Positions 26,273 to 29,145 of a stretch of 32,997 bases of DNA are shown here, piece after piece. How positions within the stretch are numbered: position 1 is the stretch's first letter; each line of letters begins with the position of its first letter. The position numbers and the translations under genes are program-made. The notes beneath the pieces were generated by a model that searched no databases, was not told the DNA's origin, and was given only the letters and a program-made list of their open reading frames with translations. Source of the stretch: Enhydrobacter aerosaccus (lineage in GTDB: Bacteria; Pseudomonadota; Alphaproteobacteria; Reyranellales; Reyranellaceae); assembly GCA_903839865.1 (NCBI GenBank), contig CAIMEE010000092.1:1-32997 (forward strand), written 5' to 3'.

Positions 26273-27694
26273 TTAAGCCTTGGGCCGCTCATGGTGGGCG
26301 GCGATCATGCGAGCCACCGCCATCGTGACCTTCTTGCCCGTCGGGATGTGCAGGAATTCGTTGGGGCCGTGCGCATTGGAATGCGGGCCCAGCACACCGG
26401 TGATCACGAACTGCGTGTTGGGAAACTTCTCCCCCAGCATGCCCATGAACGGGATGGAGCCGCCTTCGCCCATGTAGGCGGCCGGCTGGCCGAACGCCTC
26501 TTGCGACGCCTGCGTCACGGCCTTCTCCAGCCAGGGGGCAAGCTGGGGCGCGTGCCAGCCCGACTGGCCGTCGTTGCCGTTGAACTCGACGACCGCGCCG
26601 TTGGGCGAGTCCGATTCCAGCGCCTTCTTGACCGCCGCCACCGCGGCCTTGGCCTCGATCGTCGGCGGCAGGCGCAGGCTGAGCTTGGCGGTCGAATACG
26701 GCAGCAGCACGTTGCCGGCATTCTCCGGCGCCGGGTAGCCGTCCATGCCGATCACCGCGAGCTGCGGCCGCCACGTGCGGTTCAGTACCAGCTCGGCCTT
26801 CTCGTCGGCCATCGGCTGGGTGCCGCCCGCGAACGGGTAGCGGTCGATCACCGTCTCTCCCAGGACGGCGGCGGCCGCCTTGGCCTGCTCGATGCGCTGC
26901 GGCGGGATCTGTACATAGAGGTCCTGCAGCTTGATCGCGCCCGTCGCCTCGTCCTCGATGCGCGACAGCAGCTGACGCATCAGCCGGAACGACGAGGGCA
27001 CGATCCCCGACGCATCGCCCGAGTGCACGCCCTCGGTCAGCACACGCACGGTGAGCGTGCCCGACGCGACGCCGCGCAATGAGGTGGTGAGCCAGAGCCG
27101 GTCGTAGTCGCCGCAGCCGGAGTCGAGACAGACGACGAGCGAGGGGTTGCCGATGCGGTCGATGAGATGGTCGACGTAGAACGGCAGGTCGTAGCTGCCG
27201 GACTCCTCGCAGGCCTCGATCATGATCACCGAACGCGCGCGCGGCACGTTCTGCTCCTTGAGCGCGCGCAATGCGGCGAGGCAGCCATAGATCGCGTAGC
27301 CGTCATCGGCGCCGCCGCGGCCGTAGAGCTTGTCGTCCAAGCGCCGCGGGATCCAGGGCCCATAGCCCTCGAACCAGCCCTTCATCTCGGGCTGCTTGTC
27401 GAGATGACCGTAGAGCAGGACGGTGTTCTGGCTGTCACCTGGCACCTCGATGAAGATCAGCGGCGTGCGGCCCGGAAGGCGGACCACTTCCAGCGTCGCG
27501 CCGGGAAAGGCCGCGAGCTGCGGCCGCGCCCAGGCTTCCATCAGCTTGACGGCATCTTCCATATAGCCGTGCTCGACCCACTTGGGATCGAAGGCCGGCG
27601 ACTTGTTTGGGATGCGGATATACTCGGTGATCGAGGGCAGGATCGAGTCTTCCCAGAAGGTCTCGATGAAATTCTTGAGGCGCTGTGTGTCCAT
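26273..27694 (-). CDS. M20 family metallopeptidase (dipeptidase-like)
   Basis: A 473-residue cytosolic di-zinc hydrolase of the M20 family (carnosinase/CNDP/DapE-like). Metal ligands and catalytic residues are in place: His97 and Asp99 (YGHLDKQP), bridging Asp130 (GGADDG), general base Glu163 with Glu164 (ACEESGS), Asp191 (CLDSG) and His442 (NAHGPNEF). The dimerisation lid lies between, with TEGVHSGDASG. It cleaves a dipeptide or N-acyl amino acid; which one is unknown. No ribosome binding site of usual form precedes the ATG at 27694. Instead, the 98-nt interrupted palindrome begins 14 nt upstream of it. It is divergent from the flavin monooxygenase gene at 27877. Confidence 0.9.
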   Translation of the reverse strand: MDTQRLKNFIETFWEDSILPSITEYIRIPNKSPAFDPKWVEHGYMEDAVKLMEAWARPQLAAFPGATLEVVRLPGRTPLIFIEVPGDSQNTVLLYGHLDKQPEMKGWFEGYGPWIPRRLDDKLYGRGGADDGYAIYGCLAALRALKEQNVPRARSVIMIEACEESGSYDLPFYVDHLIDRIGNPSLVVCLDSGCGDYDRLWLTTSLRGVASGTLTVRVLTEGVHSGDASGIVPSSFRLMRQLLSRIEDEATGAIKLQDLYVQIPPQRIEQAKAAAAVLGETVIDRYPFAGGTQPMADEKAELVLNRTWRPQLAVIGMDGYPAPENAGNVLLPYSTAKLSLRLPPTIEAKAAVAAVKKALESDSPNGAVVEFNGNDGQSGWHAPQLAPWLEKAVTQASQEAFGQPAAYMGEGGSIPFMGMLGEKFPNTQFVITGVLGPHSNAHGPNEFLHIPTGKKVTMAVARMIAAHHERPKA

Positions 27695-27708
27695 GGCGCG
27701 AACTGTAC

Positions 27709-27806
27709 AGCATTGTCGCTTTCAATTGAATCAAGCCGTCGGCCCGGCACTGGCACCGCTTCGCTGTGAGAGCCGGGCCGACGGCCAGAGAGAAAGCGAC
27801 AATGCT
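27709..27806. repeat. 98-nt interrupted palindrome with 15-bp and 14-bp perfect arms
   Basis: The outer arms are 27709-27723 (AGCATTGTCGCTTTC) and 27792-27806 (exact reverse complement). The inner arms are 27735-27748 (GCCGTCGGCCCGGC) and 27772-27785 (exact reverse complement). An 11/6-nt internal loop separates the two stems, and a 23-nt apical loop closes them. The element fills most of the 182-bp gap between divergent start codons. It could be a very stable RNA hairpin in either 5' leader, a cruciform, or a small palindromic mobile repeat. Confidence 0.85.
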
Positions 27807-27876
27807 TCAAGCGCGGTGGCGGGCGCGGTCCAATGAAAGTAGTCTTTGGCGGCAATGTTGGGAGTGAAGGGGTGCG

Positions 27877-29145
27877 ATGCCAGTTGAAGTGATCGATACG
27901 CTCGTTGTGGGCGCGGGGCAGGCGGGCATCGCCATGAGCGAGCATCTCGGCAAGGCGGGCATTCCGCATCTTGTTCTCGAACGGCACCGCATCGCCGAGC
28001 GTTGGCGCTCCGAGCGCTGGGACTCGCTGGTGGCCAACGGTCCTGCCTGGCACGACCGCTTCCCGGGCATGGAGTTTCCCGGCGCGCATCCCGACGATTT
28101 CGTGCCGAAGGAAAAAGTCGCCGACTATTTCGTGGCCTACGCCGACATGATCAAGGCGCCGATCCTCTCCGGAGTGGAGGTGAAGAAGGTCGCCCGGCTG
28201 GCTGGACGGCCGGGCTTCCGTGCCGAGACGTCCAAGGGCGTGATCGAGGCGAGGAGCGTGGTCGTGGCGACTGGCGCCTTTCATCATCCGGTGATTCCTG
28301 ACCTGGTGCCGCGTGAGGCTGGCGTGACGCAGATCCACTCCAACGAGTATCGCAATCCGTCGCAGTTGGCGGCGGGGGCCGTGCTCGTCGTGGGCGCAGG
28401 CTCGTCGGGCGGGCAGATCGCCGACGAGTTGCTGCGCGCGGGCCGGCGCGTCTATCTTTCCGTCGGTCCGCACGCGCGGCCGCCGCGCGCCTATCGCGGG
28501 CGCGACTATTGCTGGTGGCTGGGCGTGCTGGGTAAGTGGGATGCGGCGGCGCCCAATCCCGGCGCCCAGCACATCACCATCTCCGTGAGCGGCGCGAACG
28601 GCGGCCACACGGTGGAGTTCCGGCGCTATGCCGCGCGAGGCATGACTCTTCTCGGCATGACCAAGGCGTACAAGGACGGCACCGTCACCTTCAGCCCGGA
28701 TCTCGCCGAGAACCTGCGGCGCGGCGACGCCGACTATATCTCCGTGCTCGACGAGGCCGACGCCTTCGCCGCACGCAACGGCCTCGACCTGCCGCAGGAG
28801 CCGGGGGCGCGGATCATCGATCCCGATCCCGCCTGCGTCACCGATCCGATCCTTGAGCTGAACCTAAAGGACGCCGGCATCACCACGATCATCTGGGCCA
28901 CGGGCTATGCGTTCGATTACGGCTGGCTGGAGGTCGGCACGTTCGACGAAGCCGGCAAGCCTAAGCACCAGCGCGGTGTCTCGACCGAACCCGGACTCTA
29001 TTTCCTGGGGCTGCCGTGGCAGTCGCGCCGGGGGTCGAGCTTCATCTGGGGCGTGTGGCACGATGCGCGCTATCTCGCGGACCAGATAGGGATCCAGCGT
29101 TCGTACCGGGACTACAACGAGTCCGTCAGCCGCGGAGCACGATAG
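27877..29145 (+). CDS. Flavin-containing monooxygenase (CzcO-like)
   Basis: A 422-residue FAD/NADPH-dependent monooxygenase of the FMO/CzcO type. FAD-binding GAGQAG lies at residues 12-17, with Glu at the end of strand 2 (LVLERH). The second Rossmann motif GAGSSG at 173-178 binds NADPH, and a late ATGYAFDYGWL block precedes the C-terminal helix. These enzymes hydroxylate soft nucleophiles (amines, sulfides) or perform Baeyer-Villiger reactions. The ATG at 27877 has GAAGGGG upstream. The RidA-like gene begins directly after the stop codon (29146), so the products are made together. That pairing suggests the reaction may yield a reactive imine or enamine that RidA hydrolyses. Confidence 0.88.
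   Translation: MPVEVIDTLVVGAGQAGIAMSEHLGKAGIPHLVLERHRIAERWRSERWDSLVANGPAWHDRFPGMEFPGAHPDDFVPKEKVADYFVAYADMIKAPILSGVEVKKVARLAGRPGFRAETSKGVIEARSVVVATGAFHHPVIPDLVPREAGVTQIHSNEYRNPSQLAAGAVLVVGAGSSGGQIADELLRAGRRVYLSVGPHARPPRAYRGRDYCWWLGVLGKWDAAAPNPGAQHITISVSGANGGHTVEFRRYAARGMTLLGMTKAYKDGTVTFSPDLAENLRRGDADYISVLDEADAFAARNGLDLPQEPGARIIDPDPACVTDPILELNLKDAGITTIIWATGYAFDYGWLEVGTFDEAGKPKHQRGVSTEPGLYFLGLPWQSRRGSSFIWGVWHDARYLADQIGIQRSYRDYNESVSRGAR

Follow-up and report, generated by a model that had tools for sequence, protein, structure and literature searches.

A palindromic element between two divergent genes of Enhydrobacter aerosaccus is very probably a CTAG-targeting, IS630-type MITE

The window, by which we mean the whole analysed stretch of 32,997 nucleotides from Enhydrobacter aerosaccus, carries a large two-stage palindrome between two divergent genes, one for an M20 family peptidase (Peptidase_M20) on the minus strand and one for a flavin monooxygenase-like oxidoreductase (Pyr_redox_3 / FMO-like) on the plus strand. 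An earlier note on this DNA had named the same divergent neighbours, and the Pfam matches agree. The features of the locus are as follows.

27706–27809, plus strand (orientation by model R1, which scores 115.4 bits on the plus strand versus 67.9 on the minus strand): the whole putative mobile unit, 104 nt including the edge TA and CA
27706–27707, no strand: left target dinucleotide TA (the empty site of genome G028 has a single TA inside CTAG)
27709–27723, plus strand: left outer arm, part of the terminal inverted repeat (exact complementarity)
27728–27732, plus strand: subterminal GAATC at positions 23–27 from the TA, as in IS630 ends (end comparison)
27735–27748, plus strand: left inner arm (exact-arm scan)
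27749–27771, plus strand: apical loop of 23 nt, whose counterpart in many copies of genome G052 has nested small palindromes (sequence)
27772–27785, plus strand: right inner arm (exact-arm scan)
27792–27806, plus strand: right outer arm, part of the terminal inverted repeat (exact complementarity)
27808–27809, no strand: right target dinucleotide, decayed to CA; compared with the empty site there is an additional A after it (TA in 61 of 67 copies)
26273–27694, minus strand: M20 family peptidase gene (context, outside the element; PF01546, E 7.3e-19)
27877–29145, plus strand: flavin monooxygenase-like oxidoreductase gene (context, outside the element; PF13738, E 6.3e-27; PF00743, E 7.7e-11)

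The exact-arm check reproduced the geometry given in the earlier note: an outer stem of 15 bp (100% complementary) and a perfect inner stem of 14 bp, separated by an asymmetric internal loop of 11 + 6 nt and closed by the 23-nt apical loop. These two stems are the sole exact inverted repeats of the window whose arms measure 14 or more and whose loops span 3–80. Any repeat of this kind appeared in 11 of 200 simulated first-order Markov windows, and here two are stacked. Folded as RNA, positions 27700–27815 reach −66.2 kcal/mol (z −8.4), where shuffles average −36.6 (sd 3.5), and none of the 200 shuffles folds as well. The repeated unit extends 3 nt beyond the outer arms on each side, end dinucleotides included, so that its edge is 11 nt from the M20 ATG (27694), the distance from the outer arm being 14 nt, as previously reported. 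A scan of 27600–27950 for promoters and terminators found none. No protein was seen inside the element, and matches of model R1 measure 104–134 nt, which leaves no room for a transposase gene.

The earlier note proposed a search for the arms in the host genome and its relatives, and both the window's own genome and its genus proved to contain repeated copies. A DNA search of the own genome returned five further places with 76–93% identity to the window element. Contig C502 ends and contig C62 begins inside a copy, and since the two are identical across all 85 shared bases, we counted them as one; the genome thus holds six copies in total (C92, C62/C502, C89, C430, C10, and C397, the last from model R1). 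Built from 25 copies, R1 matched 10 of the 65 genomes of the window's genus, which GTDB places under Reyranella; NCBI taxonomy keeps Enhydrobacter apart from Reyranella. As R1 counts take both strands of a palindrome, distinct places were counted by eye among the matches listed, giving at least 60 in G052, 19 in G065, 17 in G057, 10 in G011, three each in G028 and G058, and one each in G001 and G066; G033 also has matches. Across the order R1 matched 10 of 76 genomes, all within the genus, and none of the 11 outside it, where a genus-built model with strict filters and 52–61 candidates scored per genome may miss distant copies. The contig-end fragment L004 of the L002 copy was left out of all copy sets, the 27-nt match L015 out of the first alignment, and L018, the core of which is inverted relative to its outer stem, out of alignment A1. 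In this G057 copy (L018:1478–1581), the inner hairpin is inverted with respect to both the outer stem and the internal loops. Three short forms (L251, L311, L324) keep the outer stem and have mostly or wholly lost the inner hairpin.

An exact-pattern scan of the genome collection returned 76 stretches, many from the same carriers and others from Bradyrhizobium and other alphaproteobacteria; some (L166 and L188, for instance) appear to be chance hits. Loci from many Bradyrhizobium genomes (e.g. L139, L161, L200) hold a shorter hairpin that shares the left end CTAGAGCGCGATGACTTTTCTTCGAATC. In Bradyrhizobium and other alphaproteobacteria a second palindrome, GAGCATGATC...GATCATGCTC, comes after the shorter hairpin; in loci such as L139, L161 and L200 it is given as GAGCATGATC...GATCATGCTCTAG. 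A distant-mode search of the plasmid collection gave no match, and a search of the open-access literature showed no description of this element among the papers listed.

The edges of the aligned copies read C-TA-AAGC...GCTT-TA-G. TA is present at the left edge of 50 of the 67 copies and at the right edge of 61, C precedes the element in 59, G follows it in 50, and the full CTA...TAG frame is found in 30. We compared 24 joined-flank sites with the 65 genomes and inspected 20 junction-spanning places for nine copies, mostly from the top of the matches listed. None of the 20 contains the element, and each aligns across the junction. For five copies, nine of these places align at the TA: those of the window copy in G028, L003 in G028, G001 and G066, L107 in G065, G003 and G016, L097 in G011, and L028 in G053. 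Eight of the nine read CTAG and the G053 place GTAG, whereas four of the nine copies lack a clean CTAG junction (L119, with TGA in five relatives, and L086, L013 and L096, which are blurred). At the window locus G028 has both flanking genes (92.5% identity over 1,139 bases and 89.9% over 1,593 bases) and only CTAG where the element would be, its empty site being ACTC-TA-GCGCGG. The single TA found at such empty sites in relatives indicates that insertion duplicates the TA; at the right junction of the window copy, which has one extra base and CA in place of TA, this duplication is imperfect. A CTAG-like target is also that of IS630 itself.

The ends of the element point to the same family. DDE_3 transposases were found in five of the ten carriers (G011, G028, G052, G057, G033) and in none of the other five (G000, the window genome; G001; G058; G065, despite at least 19 copies; G066). 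We searched for ends at 45 DDE_3 loci, drawn from the DDE_3-positive carriers and four other genomes. Pairs of RAGC ends were recognised at 12 of them, ten by terminal similarity and two (L049, L298) by motif; 29 loci yielded no end pair, and four (L285, L286, L297, L301), which are not counted among the 12, have TA-bounded pairs of other sequence without the RAGC/GAATC pattern. In all 12 IS630-family elements with RAGC ends, several of which are near-duplicates (L283, L290, L294, L298), GAATC occupies positions 23–27 at exactly one end. The null set comprised 472 TARAGC words, from which those similar to the end of the element itself had been excluded. GAATC stands at these positions in 11 of the 472, and eight of the 11 are IS ends, so that the remainder is 3 of 464. 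Of 66 distinct copies of the element, 35 have an exact GAATC at the left end and 44 have it when a loose match is allowed. The TA-RAGC...GAATC pattern is hence common to the element and to IS630 elements of the same genus; the window copy has GAATC in place and begins with TACAGC instead of TARAGC.

One of these IS630 elements, L049 in the carrier G057, encodes an intact transposase of 313 amino acids (NCBIfam IS630, 212.8 bits against a cut-off of 100; DDE_3 present) and has its GAATC end on the side of the transposase start. The best letter match between an IS end and the element is 23 of 30, at one end of the Bradyrhizobium element L291, i.e. in another genus. Shared ends show kinship of the ends and not identity of the partner. 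The exact terminal 14-mer of the element is present in five of the ten carriers (G011, G058, G065, G052, G057), and the matches inspected are small elements, short forms and lone ends. Two neighbouring elements at G052:C46 aside, the matches inspected include no facing pair spaced by about 1 kb, and in the ten carriers we saw no autonomous element with the exact 14-mer. An autonomous element with matching ends in the same genome would help to name the partner, but a MITE may have lost its partner and need not have one.

The element is thus short and free of genes, with terminal inverted repeats, a TA duplication, a CTAG-like target and IS630-like ends. Because of the single-TA empty sites, the TA edges and the GAATC shared with IS630 ends, we consider it very likely to be a non-autonomous IS630-type MITE that targets CTAG, duplicates TA and was probably moved in trans by an IS630-family transposase. 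This agrees with one of the alternatives listed in the earlier note, a small palindromic mobile repeat.

The first possibility raised in the same note was an RNA form that could control translation of the M20 gene, and this reading has to be weighed against the pattern of covariation. In alignment A1, changes on both sides were found at 15 of 36 pairs and in 51 cells, as opposed to 7.7 and 12.7 in shuffles, and pairing was lost when the partner was slid; in the outer helix 93.1% of cells are paired (25 copies). The arms hence stay complementary through double changes, and the loss of complementarity and the uniqueness of the arms that the earlier note would have held against a functional structure are not what the copies display. 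RNA selection should favour G-U pairs over A-C mismatches, however, and a DNA palindrome should not. After the lower-scoring strand of each palindrome had been dropped (136 rows reduced to 68, of which 66 are distinct), the outer stem, counted over 14 pairs as the fifteenth is mostly unpaired, had 13 G-U and 12 A-C pairs with 53 double changes (57 with the fifteenth pair), and the inner stem 8 G-U and 10 A-C pairs with 78 double changes; the copies being related, these events are not independent. As G-U is no commoner than A-C in either stem, the palindrome seems to be kept as DNA rather than RNA, and we read its covariation accordingly. The outer stem is accounted for by the terminal repeats. 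For the complementarity of the inner stem we propose quasi-palindrome template switching, a process treated in the available text of PMC3820800.

A cis-acting hairpin in the M20 leader would fit the very stable fold, the strong covariation of pairs, the position of the unit 11 nt upstream of the M20 ATG and the 63 G-U pairs of the apical part. The unit lies beside many unrelated genes, however, two gene starts flank only 6 of its 67 copies, the locus in G028 does without it, and no Rfam family matches at gathering score (the best are 27.1 bits against 140 and 25 against 50). Together with the balance of G-U and A-C, this makes control of M20 translation highly improbable. The M20 gene does lack a visible Shine-Dalgarno sequence, as had been noted, but none was seen by eye in the element-free G028 either, so the element is not the cause. 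A REP or REPIN-like repeat moved by a Y1 (RAYT) transposase, which the earlier note had also raised, would likewise be palindromic and often found at gene ends, and Y1 transposase matches occur in seven of the ten carriers. Yet the TA duplication at CTAG and the IS630-like ends are foreign to that reading, the 104-nt unit is outside the 20–40 bp of REPs and shows neither GTAG nor CGTC ends except for GTAG formed as TA-G at some right edges, and three carriers have no Y1 match, namely the window genome, G057 (at least 17 copies) and G065 (at least 19 copies); we give it next to no credence.

The surroundings of the copies raise a different question, i.e. whether an element of mobile origin has been domesticated, its hairpin now being kept for stabilising or ending mRNAs. 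A home-made gene caller put 11 of the 67 copies inside a called frame and 2 next to a contig edge. Of the others, 25 have a 3′ gene end on one side and a 5′ end on the other, 23 have 3′ ends on both sides, and 6, like the window copy, have 5′ ends on both. In 32 of the 67 copies the edge TA falls within the stop codon of a gene, the element itself supplying the new stop; at 35 such edges the resulting stops are TAA (29), TAG (5) and TGA (1). This placement and the lasting complementarity of the stems speak for a 3′-end role. However, stop codons also account for 19 of the 64 other CTAG words in these loci, so that the choice of target combined with the loss of intragenic insertions explains much of it; the counts depend on the home-made caller, the window copy has no terminator-like T-run, and matches are confined to 10 of 65 genomes. 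We regard domestication as unlikely, and the IS630-type MITE remains the reading that we carry forward.

Copies of the MITE in G052 have a feature of their own. There, 22 of 60 listed places are 130–134 nt long. Of 12 long copies that were read, 11 have variants of GGCGCGATGGCCAACCATCGCGCC in the apical loop and L093 has AGCGCGATGACTATGGTCATCGCGCT at the 5′ side of the loop. Four copies (L316, L319, L326, L327) carry both kinds of insert, i.e. up to two small palindromes per apical loop, and three (L315, L317, L328) a third kind in the left internal loop; nested small palindromes were noted in the loops of L093, L313, L315–L317, L319 and L326–L328. L122 has CTAG at the first insert position without an insert. 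No insert was observed within a stem, and CTAG-like words are also located in loops. The second kind occurs at eight places in the G052 genome, all nested at one position and none free-standing; in seven genomes searched its pattern was otherwise found only in G011, at one place that does not look nested in this element, and in none of the remaining five. For the first kind, a script classed 15 of the 16 distinct places as nested, and the sixteenth looks nested too, although this kind was sought only in retrieved loci, which are biased to nested copies.

The nested-hairpin habit is unusual and is found in one relative, G052. It is possible, if doubtful, that the family grows in this way, with small palindromes that bear scarcely more than the terminal signal entering CTAG words in the loops of larger elements, new stems piling up in old loops and template switching then equalising the arms, and that the stem-in-stem of the window is an old product of such growth. 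Three kinds of palindrome at three loop positions and the vacant CTAG of the L122 loop suggest as much. In G052 the second kind is never free-standing, however, which leaves room for a single entry of each kind followed by copying along with its host; moreover, CTAG-like words are located in loops anyway.

Comparison with described repeats places the element among known kinds. The closest parallel is RUP, the repeat unit of pneumococcus, which the available text of PMC2229807 and PMC3049150 links to IS630-Spn1 and presents as a non-coding, intergenic element of about 107 bp with IS630-like terminal repeats and a TA target, also found inserted into one another along with BOX and SPRITE elements. 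The present element, compared by description only, differs in being G+C-rich, a palindrome over nearly its full length, alphaproteobacterial and directed to CTAG. Correia/NEMIS and ERIC elements are likewise small non-coding repeats with TA ends and long stem-loops (PMC2229807) but occupy other hosts, and the available portion of that review names no IS partner for them, whereas the present element matches IS630 ends. The GTAG/CGTC REPs, Br-REP1 and Br-REP2 resemble it as extragenic palindromes of alphaproteobacteria, located partly in 3′ regions; according to the accessible parts of PMC3733652 and PMC5082802 REPs measure 20–40 bp, with CGTC stems of 8–9 bp and loops of 4–5 nt, as opposed to the 15- and 14-bp stems, 23-nt loop and TA duplication seen here. 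The cyanobacterial MITE Nezha, also compared by description only, was assigned to ISNpu3-like elements by its terminal repeats in the accessible part of PMC3049150.

We propose the following model for the history of the element. An IS630-family transposase supplied in trans would bind the terminal repeats and move the element, probably by a cut-and-paste route. Insertion would take place at CTAG, and repair of a staggered cut would duplicate the TA. The outer stem would be kept by virtue of both ends carrying the recognition sequence, and one arm of the inner stem would be copied from the other by template switching. In the window genome the borrowed IS630-type transposase was probably active at an earlier time and not at present. 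The element would have landed 11 nt before the M20 start codon, and an effect on that gene, if there is one, would be a side effect.

The element is hence a new family of a known kind and not a dedicated RNA switch, and a striking intergenic structure is explained as a mobile element, not a regulator. Strong covariation among dispersed copies need not mean functional RNA, as DNA palindromes can yield the same, and the count of G-U versus A-C pairs is a simple control for RNA discovery. Furthermore, the empty sites, the intact IS630 of a carrier and the nested forms of G052 make both transposition in trans and nested growth testable.
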